Origin: an uncultured Flavobacteriales bacterium
GTDB lineage: Bacteria > Bacteroidota > Bacteroidia > Palsa-965
NCBI GenBank assembly: GCA_903873905.1
Contig: CAIQQJ010000037.1
Coordinates: 1 to 54,010 of the forward strand
Reading direction: 5' to 3'
DNA length: 54,010 nucleotides
In this document: one piece after another, positions 24,554-32,414 of the stretch
Position numbering within the stretch: position 1 is the stretch's first letter
Layout: the number at the start of each line of letters is the position of its first letter
Notes under the pieces: generated by a model
Told to the model about the DNA's origin: nothing
What the model saw: the letters and a program-made list of their open reading frames with translations, nothing else
Database searches by the model: none
Translations under genes and position numbers: made by a program

Positions 24554-25765
24554 TTACTCTACTTCACAAATAAACACCTTCGACTCTTTATTTCCCTTGA
24601 ATTTATAGAGTGAATTGAAGCCAACATCTGCAATGATAAAATTCATTCCTGGTGAGCGATATTCTTCCACCACATTTTTTATTTCAATTCCATCCATGTC
24701 TTTCTGTTCGTCGTAACGAATGTAAACACGAATGGTGAATTCGGTGTCGAGCAAATCTGCGCCATTGTATTTTGCTCCGAGAATGCGCTTCAGTTTTTTT
24801 AGCTTTTTATAAGAATAACGGTAATTGTAAGTCAAGGCTGAAATATCTGATAACACCGCACTACCAGTGGGATGCGATCCTGCACCTTTCCCAGTGAAAA
24901 CCTGTGTGCAAGAGAATGCCCCCTCCACTTCCACACCGTTGTATTCATACACAACCTTATAAAGCTCATCATCCGATTTTACAAAACGCGGCATTACATA
25001 AACGCGGAATTTGTCGCCTGCTTTCGCTGCACTTGCAACTAATTTAATTCGCAAACCTTTTTCACGTGCATAACGAATATCGTTGAACGTTACGTTTTGA
25101 ATTCCAAGTGCAAGAATTTGTTCAGGTTTTAAAATCACTCCAAATGCATGAACGCTTAACAAACACAACTTGTACATCGTGTCGAATCCTGCAACATCCA
25201 ACCAAGGATCAATTTCTGCAAATCCAATTGATTGTGCGTCCGCCAAAATTTCACTGTAATCCTTGCTCTCCAATTCCATTCGTGTGAGAATGTAATTGGT
25301 GGTTCCATTCAAAATTCCACGAAGTGAACTCAACAACTCATTGTCGTAATACTCTTCCAATGTGCGAATGATGGGGATACTTCCACCTGCAGAAGCTTCG
25401 TAAATCAAAGCCACATTGTTTTCCTCTTGGAGTTTATACAACTCCTCGAAATAAGTCGCCAACATTTTTTTGCTCGCGCTCACCACGGCAATCTTATTTT
25501 CCATTGCTTTTTTCACAATAGCAAATGCCTCATCCGTATCGTTGATCATCTCAACAACAACATCTAGATCTTTTCGATCAAGAATATCATCCTTGGAATA
25601 AGTAATCAGCGACATGTCCACGGATCTTTTTTTCGAAGCATCTTTCACACAAATTTTCTCGATGTTCGCTTGCAGAACCTCTGAATGATTCAACACATCG
25701 TACAGTCCCTGTCCGACACAACCGAATCCGAATAATGCTACTGAAATGTTTTCTTCGTTTGACAT
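24554..25765 (-). CDS. hom: Homoserine dehydrogenase (monofunctional)
   Basis: 403 residues. It reduces aspartate 4-semialdehyde to homoserine, the branch to methionine and threonine. The Rossmann loop ALFGFGCVGQGLY is at residues 10-22; the catalytic region includes GGSIPIIRTL, GILNGTTNYILTRM and GFAEIDPWLDVAGFDTMYKL. The usual HK of this last motif is YK here. The C-terminal part lacks a clear ACT domain, and no aspartokinase is fused. It is last in the sulfur operon, 117 nt after cysH, which fits a role in supplying homoserine as acceptor for reduced sulfur; a repeat fills the gap, so independent transcription is possible. Confidence 0.93.
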   Translation of the reverse strand: MSNEENISVALFGFGCVGQGLYDVLNHSEVLQANIEKICVKDASKKRSVDMSLITYSKDDILDRKDLDVVVEMINDTDEAFAIVKKAMENKIAVVSASKKMLATYFEELYKLQEENNVALIYEASAGGSIPIIRTLEEYYDNELLSSLRGILNGTTNYILTRMELESKDYSEILADAQSIGFAEIDPWLDVAGFDTMYKLCLLSVHAFGVILKPEQILALGIQNVTFNDIRYAREKGLRIKLVASAAKAGDKFRVYVMPRFVKSDDELYKVVYEYNGVEVEGAFSCTQVFTGKGAGSHPTGSAVLSDISALTYNYRYSYKKLKKLKRILGAKYNGADLLDTEFTIRVYIRYDEQKDMDGIEIKNVVEEYRSPGMNFIIADVGFNSLYKFKGNKESKVFICEVE

Positions 25766-25804
25766 AAAGTATTGAGTATTTGGTATTTTGTATTGAGTAA
25801 TTAA

Positions 25805-25888
25805 TTTGTCAGGCTGAGTGTCCCGGCAAACTGATTTGTTTTTGTTTTATAAAAATTCTCTATTGACGGGATGTATCGAAGCCTACAA
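25805..25888 (-). repeat. Stop-codon-anchored hairpin repeat, copy at cysH 3' end
   Basis: On the minus strand the cysH stop TAG is followed directly by GCTTCGATACATCCCG, about 40 AT-rich nt, then CCGGGACACTCAGCCTGACAAA. CCCG/CGGG can pair. The same block order follows stop codons at 34386 and 35963. Confidence 0.6.
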
Positions 25889-26530
25889 ATGCAATCCACA
25901 TTCCGTTTTCGATCTGTTCACCCATCTTCCTTCTCGTCCTCTTCCCTTTACCGTGCAATGAATGCAACCGACAGATGCAAATCCATGCGCGACCAGTGGG
26001 TGTGGTGGTAGATTATTGAGCAATAAATATTCTTTAGAAGTTTTTTCTTCCATGTCAATAATTGGATAAAACTTGATGATATCTTCTTTCTGTTCAAACA
26101 CATTCATTGATTGCCGATGTGAATTTTGAGTTTGCATCAAACCGGAAACCCAAATTTCAAAACCGGGTTTTATTTTATCAAGGGGCTCCACTTTATTTAT
26201 TGAACAACACAAATCAGGGTCCTTGCTCCAAGTATGATCTTCACGTGTGAATTTATTTTTCCATTCTTCTGGTTGAACATCTATAACATGCAAACCCAAT
26301 AATTCCGTCAGCTGATCTTTGTATTGTAATGTTTCTGCAAAATGATAAGTGGTATCGAGAAATTGAACTGCTTGTGCAGAATTTACTTTATTGAAAAGAT
26401 GCAGAAGAATAGCAGAACTTGTTCCGAACGAAGAAGTAAAAAGCACACGACTGAAATCACCATAGAGTGCGCGAATGCGTTCTTCCGGTGACAAAGTGCG
26501 ATACTTTTCGTTTAGAGAATCTAAGTTCAT
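25883..26530 (-). CDS. cysH: 4Fe-4S adenylylsulfate (APS) reductase type CysH
   Basis: 215 residues. The start ATG 26530 overlaps the upstream stop as ATGA, which decides it over an upstream ATG in the same frame. The PAPS reductase fold has the P-loop-like FTSSFGTSSAILLHLF. A CC pair (DLCCSINKVEPL) and a CIHCTVKGRGREGRW motif give the CC...CxxC set that ligates a [4Fe-4S] cluster in enzymes reducing APS rather than PAPS; the C-terminal KTECGLHL holds the catalytic Cys. The product is sulfite, the substrate of the sulfite reductase in the same operon. Consistent with the lack of any APS kinase here, though ATP sulfurylase is also not in the window. Confidence 0.93.
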   Translation of the reverse strand: MNLDSLNEKYRTLSPEERIRALYGDFSRVLFTSSFGTSSAILLHLFNKVNSAQAVQFLDTTYHFAETLQYKDQLTELLGLHVIDVQPEEWKNKFTREDHTWSKDPDLCCSINKVEPLDKIKPGFEIWVSGLMQTQNSHRQSMNVFEQKEDIIKFYPIIDMEEKTSKEYLLLNNLPPHPLVAHGFASVGCIHCTVKGRGREGRWVNRSKTECGLHL

Positions 26531-28056
26531 TTCAGAAATGTTCCAATTATTGTTTTGAGACTCGTAATGATGATGAGCAAACCTACCATGATTAATCCAT
26601 TGCGAATGGAAATGCGTGTGGATAACCAAATTGAAATTGGAGCAGCAGCCATTCCGCCAATGACAAGTCCGAGAATAATTTGCCAGTGACTAATTCCAAT
26701 CATGAAGAAGAAAGTAATCGTACTGATGCAAGCAACGAAAAATTTTGCCGCATGCGCCGATCCAATTGAATAACGAAGATCGCGTCCTCCGGCAACAAGA
26801 GTTGAAGTTACGATTGGTCCCCAGCCACCACCACCAACAGAATCGAAAAATCCTCCTGCAGCGGCAAGTGGTCCGATGTGTTTTATTTTTTTTCGTTTAG
26901 TGCGAAGAACTCCCAATGCTTTTCGAATGATCAGAATTCCAAGAATCAATGTGTAAAGTGCAATGACCGGCTTCACATAAAGCATGTATGGTTTTAACAA
27001 TGAAATGGTACAAGCTCCAACAATTGCACCAACAGCGCCTGGAATCAACATCGTTCGAAAAAGTTTTACGTTAATGTTTCTATAACGCATGTAAACAAGT
27101 GAAGAAGTTCCTGTAGTGAAAATTTCTGAAGCATGCATACTCGCACTCGCCACCGCAGGCGGAATACCAAACGACATTAAGAATGTTGTCGTCGTAACAC
27201 CGTAGGCCATTCCCATAGAACCATCAATCAACTGTGCAATAAATCCTGCGAGAATCCACAACAAAATGGTGGAATTGATTTGTGAAAACCCATCGCTCGC
27301 CCAACCGCCAATGGTGCGAAAGGGGATATATGTAAATAGTAAATGACCAATGACTAAAAGTGAAAGAACCGAAAGGCCATATAAAATTCCAGCACGAATT
27401 TTTTTCTGACGAAATTTTTTCTTGTCTTGCTTTTCTACAAGAACAGCTGTTGCTTTATTGAGCGCAGAAACTTTTTCCTTGAACGGACCTTTCAAGTGTG
27501 TGCGTAATTCGTTCAGGCTTTCAATGGACAATTGCGTTTCATCTGGAATTGCTTCCGTCAAAACTTCACGCAAACGTTTTGAAAGTGTCGGTGATTTCCC
27601 ATTGGTAGAAATGGCAATTTTCAAGTCGCCTTTTTGCACAACCGAGCCAAGATAAAAATCGCACAAGCCAGGCGTGTCTGCAACATTCACCAATAAATTT
27701 CTTGCATGTGCCTCGTTGGTAATTTCTTCCGAAATCCCAAAATCATTTACAGCAATAAAAACAAGATCAACTTCATCGCAATCTTCAGGTTGAAAATCTC
27801 GCTCGTAAATAACAACATTGGTAAATTCTTTCGAGAGATCAATGATCTCTGGAAAAATCAAAGGGGCAACCAATGTAATTTGTGTGTTCGGACTATTCGT
27901 TAGAACAGATTGTAATTTTTCAAGCGCTACATTTCCACCACCTACAATGAGCAAACGCAATTCTTCTAGCTTCAGAAAAACAGGATACAAACGATTTTCG
28001 TTTTCTGTTTTCTCCGGAACGAGTTCGGGATAATATGGCGTTTCAGAATCACTCAC
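26527..28056 (-). CDS. Fusion of CysG N-terminal (siroheme synthase) domain and TSUP sulfite/sulfate permease
   Basis: 509 residues from GTG 28056, which overlaps the upstream stop; there is no ATG before the membrane part. Residues about 22-215 are the precorrin-2 dehydrogenase/ferrochelatase domain: NRLYPVFLKLEELRLLIVGGGNVALEK (in pieces), LVNVADTPGLCDFYLGS, IAISTNGKSPTLSKRLREVL. After a charged linker, residues about 235-509 form a TauE/SafE (TSUP) domain of about eight helices with IAQLIDGSMGMAYG, its inverted counterpart GGFFDSVGGGGWGPI, and HASEIFTTGTSS. One chain thus couples siroheme formation with sulfur oxyanion transport. Overlaps cysH by 4 nt. Confidence 0.9.
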   Translation of the reverse strand: MSDSETPYYPELVPEKTENENRLYPVFLKLEELRLLIVGGGNVALEKLQSVLTNSPNTQITLVAPLIFPEIIDLSKEFTNVVIYERDFQPEDCDEVDLVFIAVNDFGISEEITNEAHARNLLVNVADTPGLCDFYLGSVVQKGDLKIAISTNGKSPTLSKRLREVLTEAIPDETQLSIESLNELRTHLKGPFKEKVSALNKATAVLVEKQDKKKFRQKKIRAGILYGLSVLSLLVIGHLLFTYIPFRTIGGWASDGFSQINSTILLWILAGFIAQLIDGSMGMAYGVTTTTFLMSFGIPPAVASASMHASEIFTTGTSSLVYMRYRNINVKLFRTMLIPGAVGAIVGACTISLLKPYMLYVKPVIALYTLILGILIIRKALGVLRTKRKKIKHIGPLAAAGGFFDSVGGGGWGPIVTSTLVAGGRDLRYSIGSAHAAKFFVACISTITFFFMIGISHWQIILGLVIGGMAAAPISIWLSTRISIRNGLIMVGLLIIITSLKTIIGTFLK

Positions 28057-28789
28057 TTTTCTTCACAGGTTTGGTCAGTAAAAATTGGAGTGTAAAACGG
28101 ATAATTTCTTGTTCTTCAAAATGATTGCTGTCCTTTTGTTGTAGCTGGTAAAGGTACACAAGCTGAGTGGAAAAAGTTTTATTAAATGCATAGGCAAAAC
28201 CAACTGAAAATCGGAAGGTGTCCATGGCGGAAAACCCCGTCTTTTTTGTTGCAAAAAGAATTTCCTGATTTTCAACGATGGAAAACCCACGATCTTTTTC
28301 TAGATTGAAACGATAATTATAATCAACACGAAATCGTTCTCGAAATGCACTGAATGTGGTCTTGTCAGCAAGTACATTTCCATTGAGTTCTCTTATGAAA
28401 CGTTGCTCGAAACGAAAACGCGGATAAATGGTGTGATGACCAATTTTAATTTTATCTCCAACTTCTTCCCATGGTCGCCATTCAGGACGAGCAGGTTTCC
28501 CATTTGGATTTGAATAATAATTAAACTGCGCGAGCCCCGTTCCGAAATTCACGCCACTTTTTGTTTTGTACCAAACGCCAACACGTGTCGCCCATAGCAC
28601 CCAATCGCCATCTGTGTATTCATATCTTCCCTGCACATCGAGCGTTGTACTTAAAACAGGAGTGATTTTATATTCACAGAACAAACCGCCCCAAACAACT
28701 TGTCGTGTGAGTACTTGTCGCGTTGATTGTGCATTTGCATTCCATGAAATAAAAAGGAAAACAAAAATTATTTTGATTTTTAAATTCAA
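28049..28789 (-). CDS. DUF2490-type outer-membrane beta-barrel protein
   Basis: 246 residues from TTG 28789 (MNLKIKIIFVFLFISWNANAQ, signal peptide); no ATG is available. The mature part has the DUF2490 pattern: QVVWGGLFCEYKI, WVLWATRVGVWYKTKSGVNFGTGLAQFNYY, RFRFEQRFIRELNG, FRERFRVDYNYRFNLEKD, DTFRFSVGFAYAFN. Alternating strands point to a barrel of the outer membrane. Function unknown. It overlaps the CysG-TSUP start by 8 nt, so translation is coupled; the operon context suggests a porin-like or accessory role for a sulfur compound (inference). Confidence 0.8.
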   Translation of the reverse strand: MNLKIKIIFVFLFISWNANAQSTRQVLTRQVVWGGLFCEYKITPVLSTTLDVQGRYEYTDGDWVLWATRVGVWYKTKSGVNFGTGLAQFNYYSNPNGKPARPEWRPWEEVGDKIKIGHHTIYPRFRFEQRFIRELNGNVLADKTTFSAFRERFRVDYNYRFNLEKDRGFSIVENQEILFATKKTGFSAMDTFRFSVGFAYAFNKTFSTQLVYLYQLQQKDSNHFEEQEIIRFTLQFLLTKPVKKSE

Positions 28790-28883
28790 CGAAATTATTT
28801 TTTGATGTGGAATGAATATTTTATTTTTAAGAGAAAGAAATTAATAAAGAGGAGGAGCGGAATACCGGAGCAATAAATTTATT

Positions 28884-28937
28884 TTGTTCCTGCTTTCCGG
28901 TCGACGGAGCTCCCTGCAATCAGGGCTAGGAATTTTC
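28884..28937 (-). repeat. REP-like dispersed repeat, copy 2 (short)
   Basis: On the minus strand GGAAAATTCCTAGCCCTG, ATTGCAGGGAGCTCC, a small hairpin (CCGTCGACCGG) and AAAGCAGGAAC. It matches the inner block of the copy at 49014-49090 (AATAGCCCCGATTGAAGCGG). Sits in the cobA-DUF2490 gap. Confidence 0.6.
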
Positions 28938-28972
28938 CACATCTCTTTTAATTTTCTTTTTTTTCAGTGGCC

Positions 28973-29746
28973 TTAGTTCAACAAATGGTGCTGCAAAGAT
29001 AATACATAAGCGGCTTGCGGATTTTTTCTAACCACCTCTCCAATTACAATTATGGCTGGCGCACCAATTCCTTCTTGTGCTACCGTTTCAACAATAGTGT
29101 CGATGGTGCCAAGAGCAAGATTTTCAGTTTGCAATGAACCATTTTGGATCACGGCAACAGGCGTATCATTCCGATTGTAAGATTGAAAAATGGAAACGAT
29201 CTCTTTTAATTTTCCAAGACCCATCAAGATTACAACCGTGGCTCCGGATTGTGCGGCAAGTTTTACATCTTCCGGCACCTTCCCTTCAGAATTTTTTCCT
29301 GTAATCACCCAAAAACTTTCACTGATGCCACGATGCGTGACAGGAATTCTCTGCAAGGCAGGAACACCAATTGAACTTGAAATTCCAGGTACCAAATCCG
29401 TTTCGATATTGAAAGTTTCCGCAAAATCCAATTCTTCCGCGCCGCGTCCGAACACAAATGGATCGCCACCTTTCAGACGCACAACATGTCCATGTGTTAA
29501 GGCATAATCCACAAGAAGTTTGTTTATTTCATCTTGAGAAAAAGTGTGCTTTCCATTGCGTTTTCCCACGTAAACTTTTATCGCTTTAAGGGGAACGTAT
29601 TTTAGTAATTCCGGATTCACAAGTGCATCGTAAAGCACAACATCCGCCTCACTGAGCGCATTGATTCCTTTTACAGTTATCAAATCTGGATCGCCGGGAC
29701 CTGCACCGACTAAAGTAATTTTTGGTTCTATGGTTTCGTTTGACAT
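28973..29746 (-). CDS. cobA: Uroporphyrinogen-III C-methyltransferase
   Basis: 257 residues. It transfers two methyl groups from S-adenosylmethionine to uroporphyrinogen III, giving precorrin-2, which the CysG N-terminal domain two genes downstream turns into siroheme. Motifs: LVGAGPGDPDLITVKG (residues 12-27), DVVLYDALVNPELL, YVGKRNGKH, VRLKGGDPFVFGRGAEE, VPGISSSIGVPA, and PVTHRG. Length is typical of single-domain SUMT. It starts 59 nt after the sulfite reductase stop; that gap has word repeats (CTTCGTGACTTGGTGTCTTCG) but no clear terminator. Confidence 0.96.
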   Translation of the reverse strand: MSNETIEPKITLVGAGPGDPDLITVKGINALSEADVVLYDALVNPELLKYVPLKAIKVYVGKRNGKHTFSQDEINKLLVDYALTHGHVVRLKGGDPFVFGRGAEELDFAETFNIETDLVPGISSSIGVPALQRIPVTHRGISESFWVITGKNSEGKVPEDVKLAAQSGATVVILMGLGKLKEIVSIFQSYNRNDTPVAVIQNGSLQTENLALGTIDTIVETVAQEGIGAPAIIVIGEVVRKNPQAAYVLSLQHHLLN

Positions 29747-29805: not shown

Positions 29806-31911
29806 TCAATTTGCATTTGAATGTTTGGTTTTCAAGCTATCAGCTTGTTTCAAAAATTCTTTTGCTTCAATAATATATTTTGATGCAAAATCTTTTGTCG
29901 GCGTGTTTTTGTTGATTTGTAAAACCTTTTCTTTAAATCCAATTTGAAATTCCTTTTCGAAATCAGCAATGACTCCATGTTGGGTATTAACATGAATTCC
30001 TTTTGTGAGCAGCAATGATTTTGCAACATGTATAAAACTGTTGTAAGCTTTATAAACAGCATCCGCAAATCGCTTTTCCGAAAAGTTTTCCTCCGCTGCC
30101 GCAAACGCTTCTTTCGCCTCCAACAAAAGAGTAGCTACCAAATCAATTTTCACACCGGCACATTCACCAACTCCAATTGCACTTGCATATTTCTGTTCCT
30201 GATTCCAATCGATGAATTCGGCATCTTTTACAGTGCCCAAATCAGAAAATGGTTTTAGCAGCAAGTAGAAATAATTTTTTCCAACACGATCATAATAATC
30301 ATTGAAAACTTCTGCCGGTTTTGCATTTGTTCTGAAATCAGAAAGCAAGGTTCTCAATACAGCAGGTGCGCGTTTACTTGGGAACTTCAGAATCTTTTCT
30401 GCAACTCGACCGTTTCCACTTCCAGTAATTCCACCACCAAGCACCAATTGCAAAGCAGGAAGAACAAAATTTCCGGCCTTGATTGAACTGCCATGAAATC
30501 CGATTTGTGCAAGCCCATGTTGACTGCAAGAATTCATGCAGCCGCTAATTTTAATGGACAGATTATTTTCCGCAACCAATTCTGGAAACTCTTCACGAAT
30601 TGTTTTTTCAAATTCAAGAGCAACGCCTGTGCTATTTGAAATAGCAAGATTGCAAGTATCCGTTCCTGGGCAAGAAGCAATATCGGCCAATGCATTTCCT
30701 CCTGTTGTTGCCAAGCCAATTCCATTCAGTTCATTGTAAAGTGCTGGCAAGGCCGATTCAGAAACAAAACGGAGCAAGAAACTTTGTCCGATAGTTACAC
30801 GAACATCATCGGCTGCATACCGTTCAACAACCGTTGCGAGGGATCTTGATTTTTCCGATAAAATATTGCCTAATGAAATTTTGACGTAAACACCAAACCA
30901 ACCATTTTGTTTTTGTGGAAACACATTTGCTTTTTTCCATTCGAGAAAGGCGAGACTGTCGCTCACGCGAAAAGTGGTGAATATTTCCGTGATCTTTTTC
31001 TGTGGCAATGTAATTGTGCTTTCTCCTTCGATCGGAATTTTTATAGATGGCAAAGAAAGTTTTTCCACTTCAACCAATTTCAAAACCTCATCCAATCCAA
31101 TTTGATTGACGAAATATTTGAGACGCGCCTTGAGTCGATTATTGCGTTCTCCAAATCGATCGAATACACGTAGTAATGCCTCTGTAAATGGAATAATTTC
31201 TTCAGCAGGCAAAAATTCATAAGCGGTTTTTGCAAGAAACGCTTGTGCACCAAGCCCACCGCCAATTAGAACTTTGAATCCACGTGTGATTTTCTTATTG
31301 ATGATTTCAACACGCGGAATAAATCCGATATCGTGAATGAAAGTAACGGCAGAATCAGCCTCGGAAGAAGAAAATGCGATTTTTATTTTGCGTGGAAGAT
31401 CTTGTCCTGCTGGATGACGAAGAAAATAATTGTACAATGCATCCGAATAGGGAGTGACATCAAAAGGTTCGTGTAGATCAATTCCGGCAGTTGCGGAAGT
31501 GGTAATGTTTCGAACGGTATTTCCACAAGCTTCGCGAAGTGTGAGATTGTCTTTTTCAATTTCCGCCCACAATTCTGGTGTGCGATCCAAACTCACAAAA
31601 TACAATTGTACATCCTGGCGCGTTGTCAAATGAATGTTTCCAGTAGAAAATTCATCTGTGAGATCAGCTATTTTTCGAATTTGTTTTACGCTGAGTTTTC
31701 CATAAGGAATTTTGATGCGAACCATTTGAACACCTGGCTGACGTTGTCCATAAATTCCACGAGCCAAACGAAGACTGCGGAATTTTTCAGGATCAATTTT
31801 TCCCGTTTCAAAAAGTTGAATTTTTTCATCTAACTTCACGATATCACGTTTTGCAATCGCTGTTATTTCATCACTTGGATAATTTGCAATCGCTGTTCTA
31901 AAAGTTGTCAT
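29806..31911 (-). CDS. Siroheme [4Fe-4S] sulfite/nitrite reductase with C-terminal HEPN domain
   Basis: 701 residues from ATG 31911 (MTTFRTAIANYPSDEI); the frame is open upstream through the terminator hairpin, which excludes earlier starts. Two half-repeats of the NirA/CysI fold: RSLRLARGIYGQRQPGVQMVRIKIPYG and GNIHLTTRQDVQLYFV near the N terminus, and cluster/siroheme ligands C414-x5-C420 (SCPGTDTCN) and C458-x3-C462 (GCMNSCSQHG). Residues about 575-700 form an all-helical HEPN domain (RFADAVYKAYNSFIHVAK, KGIHVNTQHGVIADFEKEF). The six-electron reduction of sulfite to sulfide is the expected job in this operon; nitrite is the alternative substrate. First gene after the tandem attenuators. 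Confidence 0.92.
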   Translation of the reverse strand: MTTFRTAIANYPSDEITAIAKRDIVKLDEKIQLFETGKIDPEKFRSLRLARGIYGQRQPGVQMVRIKIPYGKLSVKQIRKIADLTDEFSTGNIHLTTRQDVQLYFVSLDRTPELWAEIEKDNLTLREACGNTVRNITTSATAGIDLHEPFDVTPYSDALYNYFLRHPAGQDLPRKIKIAFSSSEADSAVTFIHDIGFIPRVEIINKKITRGFKVLIGGGLGAQAFLAKTAYEFLPAEEIIPFTEALLRVFDRFGERNNRLKARLKYFVNQIGLDEVLKLVEVEKLSLPSIKIPIEGESTITLPQKKITEIFTTFRVSDSLAFLEWKKANVFPQKQNGWFGVYVKISLGNILSEKSRSLATVVERYAADDVRVTIGQSFLLRFVSESALPALYNELNGIGLATTGGNALADIASCPGTDTCNLAISNSTGVALEFEKTIREEFPELVAENNLSIKISGCMNSCSQHGLAQIGFHGSSIKAGNFVLPALQLVLGGGITGSGNGRVAEKILKFPSKRAPAVLRTLLSDFRTNAKPAEVFNDYYDRVGKNYFYLLLKPFSDLGTVKDAEFIDWNQEQKYASAIGVGECAGVKIDLVATLLLEAKEAFAAAEENFSEKRFADAVYKAYNSFIHVAKSLLLTKGIHVNTQHGVIADFEKEFQIGFKEKVLQINKNTPTKDFASKYIIEAKEFLKQADSLKTKHSNAN

Positions 31912-31965: not shown

Positions 31966-31997
31966 TAAAAAAGCCCTCCTGTTTTCACGGGAGAGCT
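31966..31997 (-). terminator. Attenuator terminator 1, before the sulfite reductase gene
   Basis: On the minus strand AGCTCTCCCGTG-AAAA-CAGGAGGGCT folds into about ten pairs with two bulged bases and is followed by TTTTTTATT, 55 nt before the reductase ATG. Its 5' arm (TCTCCCG, 31988-31994) is exactly complementary to a segment inside the preceding leader ORF (32037-32043). Confidence 0.85.
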
Positions 31998-32020
31998 TCA
32001 ATCAAAAACCTAAAATCTGG

Positions 32021-32122
32021 TTAAGACGAATACAAATCTCCCGAGTCGCCACGCATGCAGCAACACATACACATGCACATACACATGTGGAAGGAGAAAT
32101 TTTGTTTCGATGTGTTTTTCAT
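32021..32122 (-). CDS. Cys/Met-rich leader peptide 1 (33 residues)
   Basis: ATG 32122 to TAA 32021. The peptide begins MKNTSKQNFSFH, continues with MCMCMCMCCCM (residues 13-23: six Cys and five Met in eleven residues) and ends RGDSGDLYSS. This composition cannot be chance in an AT-rich intergenic region and is placed 24 nt before an intrinsic terminator, as in amino-acid operon leaders. The codons for N-F-S (around 32093-32100) and S-G-D (around 32034-32043) also encode the pairing segments 1 and 2. Translation of the Cys run would be slow when Cys-tRNA is scarce. Not translated evidence, but very strong by architecture. Confidence 0.85.
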   Translation of the reverse strand: MKNTSKQNFSFHMCMCMCMCCCMRGDSGDLYSS

Positions 32123-32138
32123 CTTAATTCAATTTTAT

Positions 32139-32243
32139 TTTGTCAGACTGAGTGTTTTTCTTTTTTGTCAGCCTTCGATACATTCTCCTGCGTCTAACAA
32201 TTAGTCTGACAAAAAAGAAAAATGTACCGAAGTCTGGCAAAAG
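32139..32243. repeat. Rearranged stop-codon-type repeat between the two attenuators
   Basis: Holds the blocks TTTGTCAGACTGAGTGT (32139-32155), TGTCAGCCTTCGATACAT (32166-32183) and TAGTCTGACAAA with TGTACCGAAGTCTGGC (32202-32239), in mixed orientation. The same blocks occur at 25805-25888, 34386-34467 and 35911-35963. Looks like two copies overlapped or inserted into each other. No promoter consensus is visible in it. Confidence 0.55.
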
Positions 32244-32277
32244 AAAAAAGGCCTTCCGATTTACTGGAAAGCCTTTT
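32244..32277 (-). terminator. Attenuator terminator 2
   Basis: On the minus strand AAAAGGCTTTCC-AGTAAATC-GGAAGGCCTTTT gives an 8-bp GC-rich core (one G-T pair) plus four A-T pairs, and the T run continues to TTTTTTC. It lies 23 nt after leader peptide 2. Confidence 0.88.
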
Positions 32278-32365
32278 CAGATATTATTGCTTTTCCAGAT
32301 CACGACAATGCGCAGCACATCATGCTGTTCATCATTGTTGTTGTATGGAAAAAATTTGTTTTCAT
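32246..32365 (-). promoter_or_regulatory. Transcription attenuator unit 2
   Basis: Segment 1: TTTTCCA (32346-32352) in the F-F-H codons. Segment 2: CTGGAAAAGC (32289-32298), starting 2 nt after the stop codon. Segment 3: GCTTTCCAG (32264-32272), 5' arm of the terminator. Segment 4: the 3' arm. 1:2 is 7 bp; 2:3 is 9 bp with one bulged A; 3:4 is the terminator. The arrangement is the same as unit 1. Confidence 0.78.
32300..32365 (-). CDS. Cys/Met-rich leader peptide 2 (21 residues)
   Basis: ATG 32365 to TGA 32300. The peptide is MKTNFFHTTT followed by MMNSMMCCALS: four Met and two adjacent Cys in the second half. It begins 17 nt after a consensus -7 box, so the mRNA leader is very short. Shared features with leader 1 are the MK start, the N-F-x-F/H stretch that encodes segment 1, the Met/Cys run, and the terminator that follows. 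The stop codon lies just before pairing segment 2, so a ribosome finishing the peptide would mask that segment. Confidence 0.82.
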   Translation of the reverse strand: MKTNFFHTTTMMNSMMCCALS

Positions 32366-32381
32366 GTCGTAATTGATGGCG

Positions 32382-32414
32382 CAAATATAGATGGCTTTTT
32401 TGATTGCTTCCAAA
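32382..32414 (-). promoter_or_regulatory. Consensus promoter of the sulfur operon
   Basis: On the minus strand TTTG (32414-32411), a 21-nt spacer, and TATATTTG (32389-32382), a full match to the Bacteroidota promoter. The expected start of transcription is about 10 nt before leader peptide 2. It is the only consensus promoter seen before the reductase gene. Confidence 0.8.

Follow-up and report, generated by a model that had tools for sequence, protein, structure and literature searches.

Leader-peptide attenuation is a classical mode of transcriptional control, with the trp and his operons of Escherichia coli as its models and with a logic that rests on segments 2, 3 and 4 of the leader RNA. 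Among the described systems closest to the locus considered here is the uORFC-8-2 motif in the leader of cysS of Rhodobacterales, in which an open reading frame (ORF) with Cys codons is combined with an intrinsic terminator, and for which ribosome-mediated attenuation has been proposed (PMC8632094). Mycobacteria possess poly-Cys leaders, short ORFs ahead of cys operons, which the available text of the relevant accounts reports to be Cys-responsive (PMC1262725; Canestrari et al., 2020, as cited in PMC13236596); within that text no intrinsic terminator is found, and Rho-dependent or translational attenuation is proposed instead (PMC1262725; PMC13236596). In Salmonella the virulence and Mg genes of mgtCBR are preceded by the tandem attenuators mgtM and mgtP, which respond to ATP and proline and have no intrinsic terminators (PMC3641672). 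Candidate attenuators have been listed for Flavobacterium psychrophilum, which indicates that the class exists in Bacteroidota, and the main text of that study does not name Cys/Met leaders (PMC9723704).

The locus lies on the minus strand of contig CAIQQJ010000037.1 from an uncultured Flavobacteriales bacterium, of which a stretch of 54,010 nucleotides, hereafter the window, was analysed. An earlier note, made from the sequence by itself, had read it as a series of two classical attenuators governed by Cys/Met leader peptides, and the pieces it named (promoter, leader 2, terminator 2, leader 1, terminator 1 and the reductase ORF) are all present, in that order. The Bacteroidota-type promoter TTTG-21 nt-TATATTTG (32382..32414), identified from the sequence and by a pattern search, is the sole site of its type ahead of both units, while the pattern alone is no rarer than chance (2 in the window against 3.7 expected). 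It is followed by the ORF of the upstream leader peptide 2, MKTNFFHTTTMMNSMMCCALS (32300..32365), which has 21 amino acids with four internal Met and two Cys and has same-place counterparts in relatives, and then by intrinsic terminator 2 (segments 3:4; approximately 32239..32278), a 13 bp hairpin of -15.4 kcal/mol with a U tract behind it. The ORF of the downstream leader peptide 1, MKNTSKQNFSFHMCMCMCMCCCMRGDSGDLYSS, which includes MCMCMCMCCCMRGDSGDLYSS (32021..32122), encodes 33 amino acids with six Cys and five internal Met and is of a type conserved in relatives; intrinsic terminator 1 (segments 3:4; approximately 31967..31999) is recognised from its fold and from three covarying pairs. 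The sulfite/nitrite reductase with a C-terminal HEPN domain (29806..31911; Pfam NIR_SIR, NIR_SIR_ferr and HEPN) is, putatively, the first gene of the regulated operon. On the same strand (24554..29746) there follow genes assigned by Pfam to SUMT/CobA (uroporphyrinogen methyltransferase), DUF2490, a sirohaem synthase-TauE fusion, PAPS/APS reductase (cysH) and homoserine dehydrogenase, with no convincing terminator between them, and these are likely to be co-transcribed as the rest of the operon.

Like uORFC-8-2, these units consist of a short ORF with Cys codons and then an intrinsic terminator, ahead of a Cys-related gene. However, uORFC-8-2 belongs to Alphaproteobacteria, precedes cysS only, has two Cys codons and no Met run, and is a single unit, whereas the Bacteroidota units have long Cys/Met runs, precede sulfur-assimilation operons and occur in tandem. 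With the mycobacterial leaders, so far as the available text describes them, they share short ORFs with runs of Cys codons that precede cys operons, but each Bacteroidota unit also carries an intrinsic terminator together with an antiterminator that covaries. The likeness to mgtCBR is that two short ORFs in series within one leader would govern transcription into the operon; the difference is that here, in Bacteroidota, the two units are of the same type and probably respond to the same signal. The segment 2/3/4 logic and control by a leader peptide are common to E. coli trp and his and to the F. psychrophilum candidates, although those are single units. In the open-licence literature we found no description of Cys/Met attenuators in Bacteroidota, either single or tandem, none of two same-signal leader-peptide attenuators with intrinsic terminators in series in Bacteroidota, and no account of the regulation of sulfate assimilation in Bacteroidota that covers this locus.

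We hypothesise that the locus is a two-stage, ribosome-mediated Cys/Met attenuator of the trp type placed before the sulfite reductase operon, and on the basis of comparative sequence analysis we give this reading a probability of about 0.86. Polymerase starting at the single promoter would meet two leader-peptide/terminator units in turn, in each of which a ribosome would translate the short Cys/Met-rich ORF. With ample charged tRNA-Cys, and secondarily tRNA-Met, the ribosome is predicted to reach the stop codon and cover segment 2, so that the 3:4 terminator forms and RNA synthesis ends; with scarce charged tRNA, it would stall at the Cys/Met codons with its leading edge just short of segment 2, which would permit 2:3 pairing and allow polymerase to go on. 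The signal would accordingly be tRNA charging. As both units would have to be passed to reach the sulfite reductase gene, repression may be multiplied and the response to cysteine shortage made sharper; this two-stage, or AND-gate, logic is predicted from the order of the parts. Same-signal attenuators in series represent a natural design for multiplying repression, and one that is directly testable.

A strict detector, defined as an ATG ORF of 10-75 codons with at least five Cys/Met in 8 residues and an intrinsic terminator close behind, was run on 1,300 nt of upstream sequence from each of 86 homologues (two of them probably second copies from the same genomes), which were taken from the window's GTDB family, a genome collection and 247 genomes of the class. 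It was positive for 32 of the 86, and for none of the 86 reverse complements and none of the 86 dinucleotide shuffles, which bears out the proposal that the leader ORFs are conserved in relatives; short Cys/Met-rich ORFs stand ahead of sulfur genes, and the intrinsic terminator sits between leader and structural gene. By these rules about half of the nirA-HEPN homologues have no unit. A similar scan of 721 kb of the window's own genome, on both strands, returned nothing beyond the window's two units and a single poor match, and the whole of that genome was searched with two covariance models, R1 and R2. For the comparisons below, 80 units were curated by a rule somewhat looser than the strict detector; since the terminator is part of the detector its presence in this set is partly due to selection, whereas the 2:3 pairing was not selected for. 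Leader-like ORFs ending in six Cys, with no terminator directly behind, were also seen in Botryobacter (L044) and Pontibacter (L045 and L078), where they possibly reflect another mode of termination; the Pontibacter loci, with C6 leaders and no adjacent terminator by the detector, were left out of the set.

In most of the 80 units 9-20 nt separate the end of the Cys/Met run from the start of segment 2, and the stop codon lies either just before the start of segment 2 or within 20-35 nt after it. The control codons are thus so placed that a stalled ribosome would free segment 2 and a ribosome at the stop codon would cover it. Segment 2 is directly behind the stop codon in upstream units and in the ORF tail (codons CGGAAGG or CGGGAGA) in downstream ones, and it complements the 5′ arm of the terminator, with 56% of units individually at p<0.05 against shuffles, where the p-values, like all p-values and E-values given here, ignore phylogeny. 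Taken alone, the window shows a modest 2:3 pairing. In unit 2, segment 2 is CUGGAAAAGC (32289..32298, minus strand), which begins 1 nt past the leader stop codon and pairs with the terminator 5′ arm at p = 0.055 by itself; in unit 1 it is CGGGAGA (32037..32043, minus strand), within the tail of leader 1, which pairs with UCUCCCG of terminator 1 (p = 0.04), is supported by covariation, and forms the antiterminator in a predicted fold that lacks the 3′ arm. The upstream units of relatives mostly give p 0.005-0.05, and the pairing is not detectable in some relatives (Pedobacter and some Chitinophaga).

Formal counting of pairs was confined to the downstream type (alignment A1), because in the alignment of the upstream units (A2) MAFFT had placed segment 2 wrongly. 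In the 22 aligned downstream-type units an antiterminator pair is A-U in 18 and G-C in 4, and the same position of the arm shifts from U-A to C-G in the terminator, so that three segments covary; the covariation score of either helix was reached by none of 500 shuffles. Within a single genus (L110 and L111), a change of U to C in the arm is matched by one of A to G in segment 2, and the 3′ arm of the terminator does not follow. The antiterminator (2:3), which excludes the terminator, therefore shows compensatory change, and the pairing that the earlier note had postulated is both conserved, among the 80 units, and covarying, in the 22. Its claim of a full set of segments 1 to 4 holds for both window units, where a segment 1 complementary to segment 2 is found among the N-terminal codons, as UUUUUCCA (codons FFH; 32346..32353, minus strand; duplex score p = 0.003 against shuffles) in unit 2 and as AAUUUCUC (32094..32101, minus strand; p = 0.04 against shuffles, and present in the predicted fold) in unit 1. 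It does not hold for relatives in general, as 1:2 complementarity reaches p<0.05 in only 14 of 77 units (18%), and segment 1 is an accessory feature and not a defining one.

It could be argued that the terminators, which are strong and conserved, are simply stacked to set a basal level or to answer a protein or riboswitch, with no translational control and with fortuitous ORFs. We regard this as extremely improbable, since the ORF content is extreme, conserved and absent from both control sets, the distance from the run to segment 2 is fixed and segment 2 covaries with the arm. Moreover, no Rfam family (for example a SAM riboswitch) was matched at gathering score, and a scan of the locus at relaxed thresholds gave chance-level matches only.

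The tandem arrangement is itself widespread, with 16 loci found by the detector and two more (L021 and L111) by eye. They come from three genera in the family of the window and from at least five families besides, with further MAG loci added, so that the pair has been kept in at least six families. Upstream leaders in relatives mostly end in CCMMC followed by I, V or R, or in something similar, and downstream leaders in MCMCCCMR plus a tail, so that upstream and downstream units are two distinct types, each conserved separately. On a tree of the sulfite reductase (nirA) the tandem state occurs in a single part only, with 3 changes against 8.3 in shuffled data (0 of 500 shuffles); inside that part the single-unit rows are L019, a close relative with the downstream unit only and an apparent loss, and L043, which is on a truncated contig. 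One family (f10; L127, L128 and L131) has a separate tandem of other make-up. Four loci of one genus (L018, L019, L204 and L206), which lie before different genes, share an almost identical spacer, GTTGATTGTTGGTGTGTTGAGCGAAG, from leader stop to terminator; nothing in the attenuator model needs such identity.

A -7 motif, TANNTTTG, lies 17-27 nt ahead of the upstream leader in 13 of the 16 tandem loci and was never found between the units in these 16. The position of the motif is thus conserved, ahead of the upstream unit only, as expected for two attenuators in series behind one promoter. At the Pedobacter-type nirA loci (L061, L065, L066, L072, L087, L093 and L126) just 12 nt separate the -7 motif from the leader ATG, and for this reason translation of these Cys leaders may start on RNA that is leaderless or nearly so.

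The position at which the front edge of a stalled ribosome just clears segment 2 is 17-25 nt upstream of it, and here Cys accounts for 54-67% of codons and Met for 15-34%, Met being dominant farther upstream in the leaders. Across the 16 tandem loci the Cys:Met of upstream and downstream leaders is nearly identical, at 3.6:3.6 and 4.3:4.3. As Cys occupies the stall position and the ratios are equal, Cys is likely to be the main signal of both units. An alternative is that the upstream unit senses Met (or SAM status via Met-tRNA) and the downstream unit Cys, giving a true AND gate with two inputs, and the make-up of the window's own leaders, with Met prevailing in leader 2 and Cys in leader 1, had suggested two charging levels in the earlier note. 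Yet the equal counts among relatives and the predominance of Cys at the stall codons make two different signals unlikely; even in leader 2 of the window it is the two Cys codons that come last ahead of segment 2, and this leader's richness in Met is, by this comparison, a local variant.

Cys-rich leaders are able to sense metals in other bacteria, and the Cys/Met-rich peptide might itself be a sensor of thiols, metals (Cu, Zn) or redox state, with the nascent chain stalling the ribosome or binding metal; in three relatives a peroxiredoxin gene does separate the units from nirA. We consider a sensing peptide highly unlikely, however, because what the 80 units conserve is Cys/Met content at a set distance from segment 2 and not any Cys spacing or motif, and because the downstream genes serve sulfur assimilation and Met biosynthesis, for which the supply of Cys and Met is the natural signal.

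The attenuation reading is extended by units at other sulfur genes. With R1, R2 and inspection, the same device was found before cysC-cysD in 7 of 10 genomes of the family, the window's own included, where a third unit (MNNNLHISITRYSCKNCCWMCM; L260, G000:C97, approximately 66381-66530) is located upstream of the APS kinase gene cysC; outside the family such cysC units are rare (2 of 27 genomes). One relative (G004) has a unit before the homoserine dehydrogenase gene hom. Another (G002), in which no sulfite reductase homologue was found, has tandem units before metY, encoding O-acetylhomoserine sulfhydrylase (L268/L211, G002:C77), and a further unit before an operon with SUMT-like and peroxiredoxin genes. 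Given the units upstream of cysC-cysD, metY and hom, the device forms a regulon. On balance we incline to the view of a Bacteroidota Cys-attenuation regulon that governs sulfate assimilation, in which two same-signal attenuators in series act on the sulfite reductase operon in at least six families, and on metY in one relative, and in which the duplication was favoured by selection as a gate of two stages, multiplying repression and making the response to a shortage of Cys-tRNA sharper. The parts predict that ribosomes would read the cysteine supply where the pathway begins (cysC-cysD) and then twice at its costliest step (sulfite reductase and sirohaem), and the regulon comprises many naturally occurring replicates, of one stage or of two. 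Matches of R1/R2 before a 2-oxoacid:ferredoxin oxidoreductase (L240 and L242) were not counted, having few Cys codons; in their short ORFs a few codons are for Cys or Trp (MCPWKCC and KEMCWCY), and a conserved terminator accompanies them.

Finally, most of the spacer between the window's units consists of an element that the earlier note had overlooked, a dispersed 96-bp palindromic repeat of MITE/REP-like type (32140..32235, minus strand), recognised from near-full copies with unrelated flanks. There are about nine near-full copies in the same genome (G000, L003-L009) and many partial ones. With this repeat between the units, and with a close relative that retains the downstream unit only (L019), so that loss evidently happens, it is conceivable that just one unit functions in this genome and that the repeat was inserted without cost beside a relic. 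Such decay seems improbable to us, since ORF, segment 2, terminator and segment 1 pairing are intact in both units and the pair is retained across families. In most other tandem loci the inter-unit distance is 4-57 nt. The repeat is a double palindrome with the core TTTTTTGTCAGACTGAGTGT...ACACTCAGTCTGACAA and a strong fold (z = -4.5), and it is not part of the two-stage switch, having lengthened the spacer and left both units intact.
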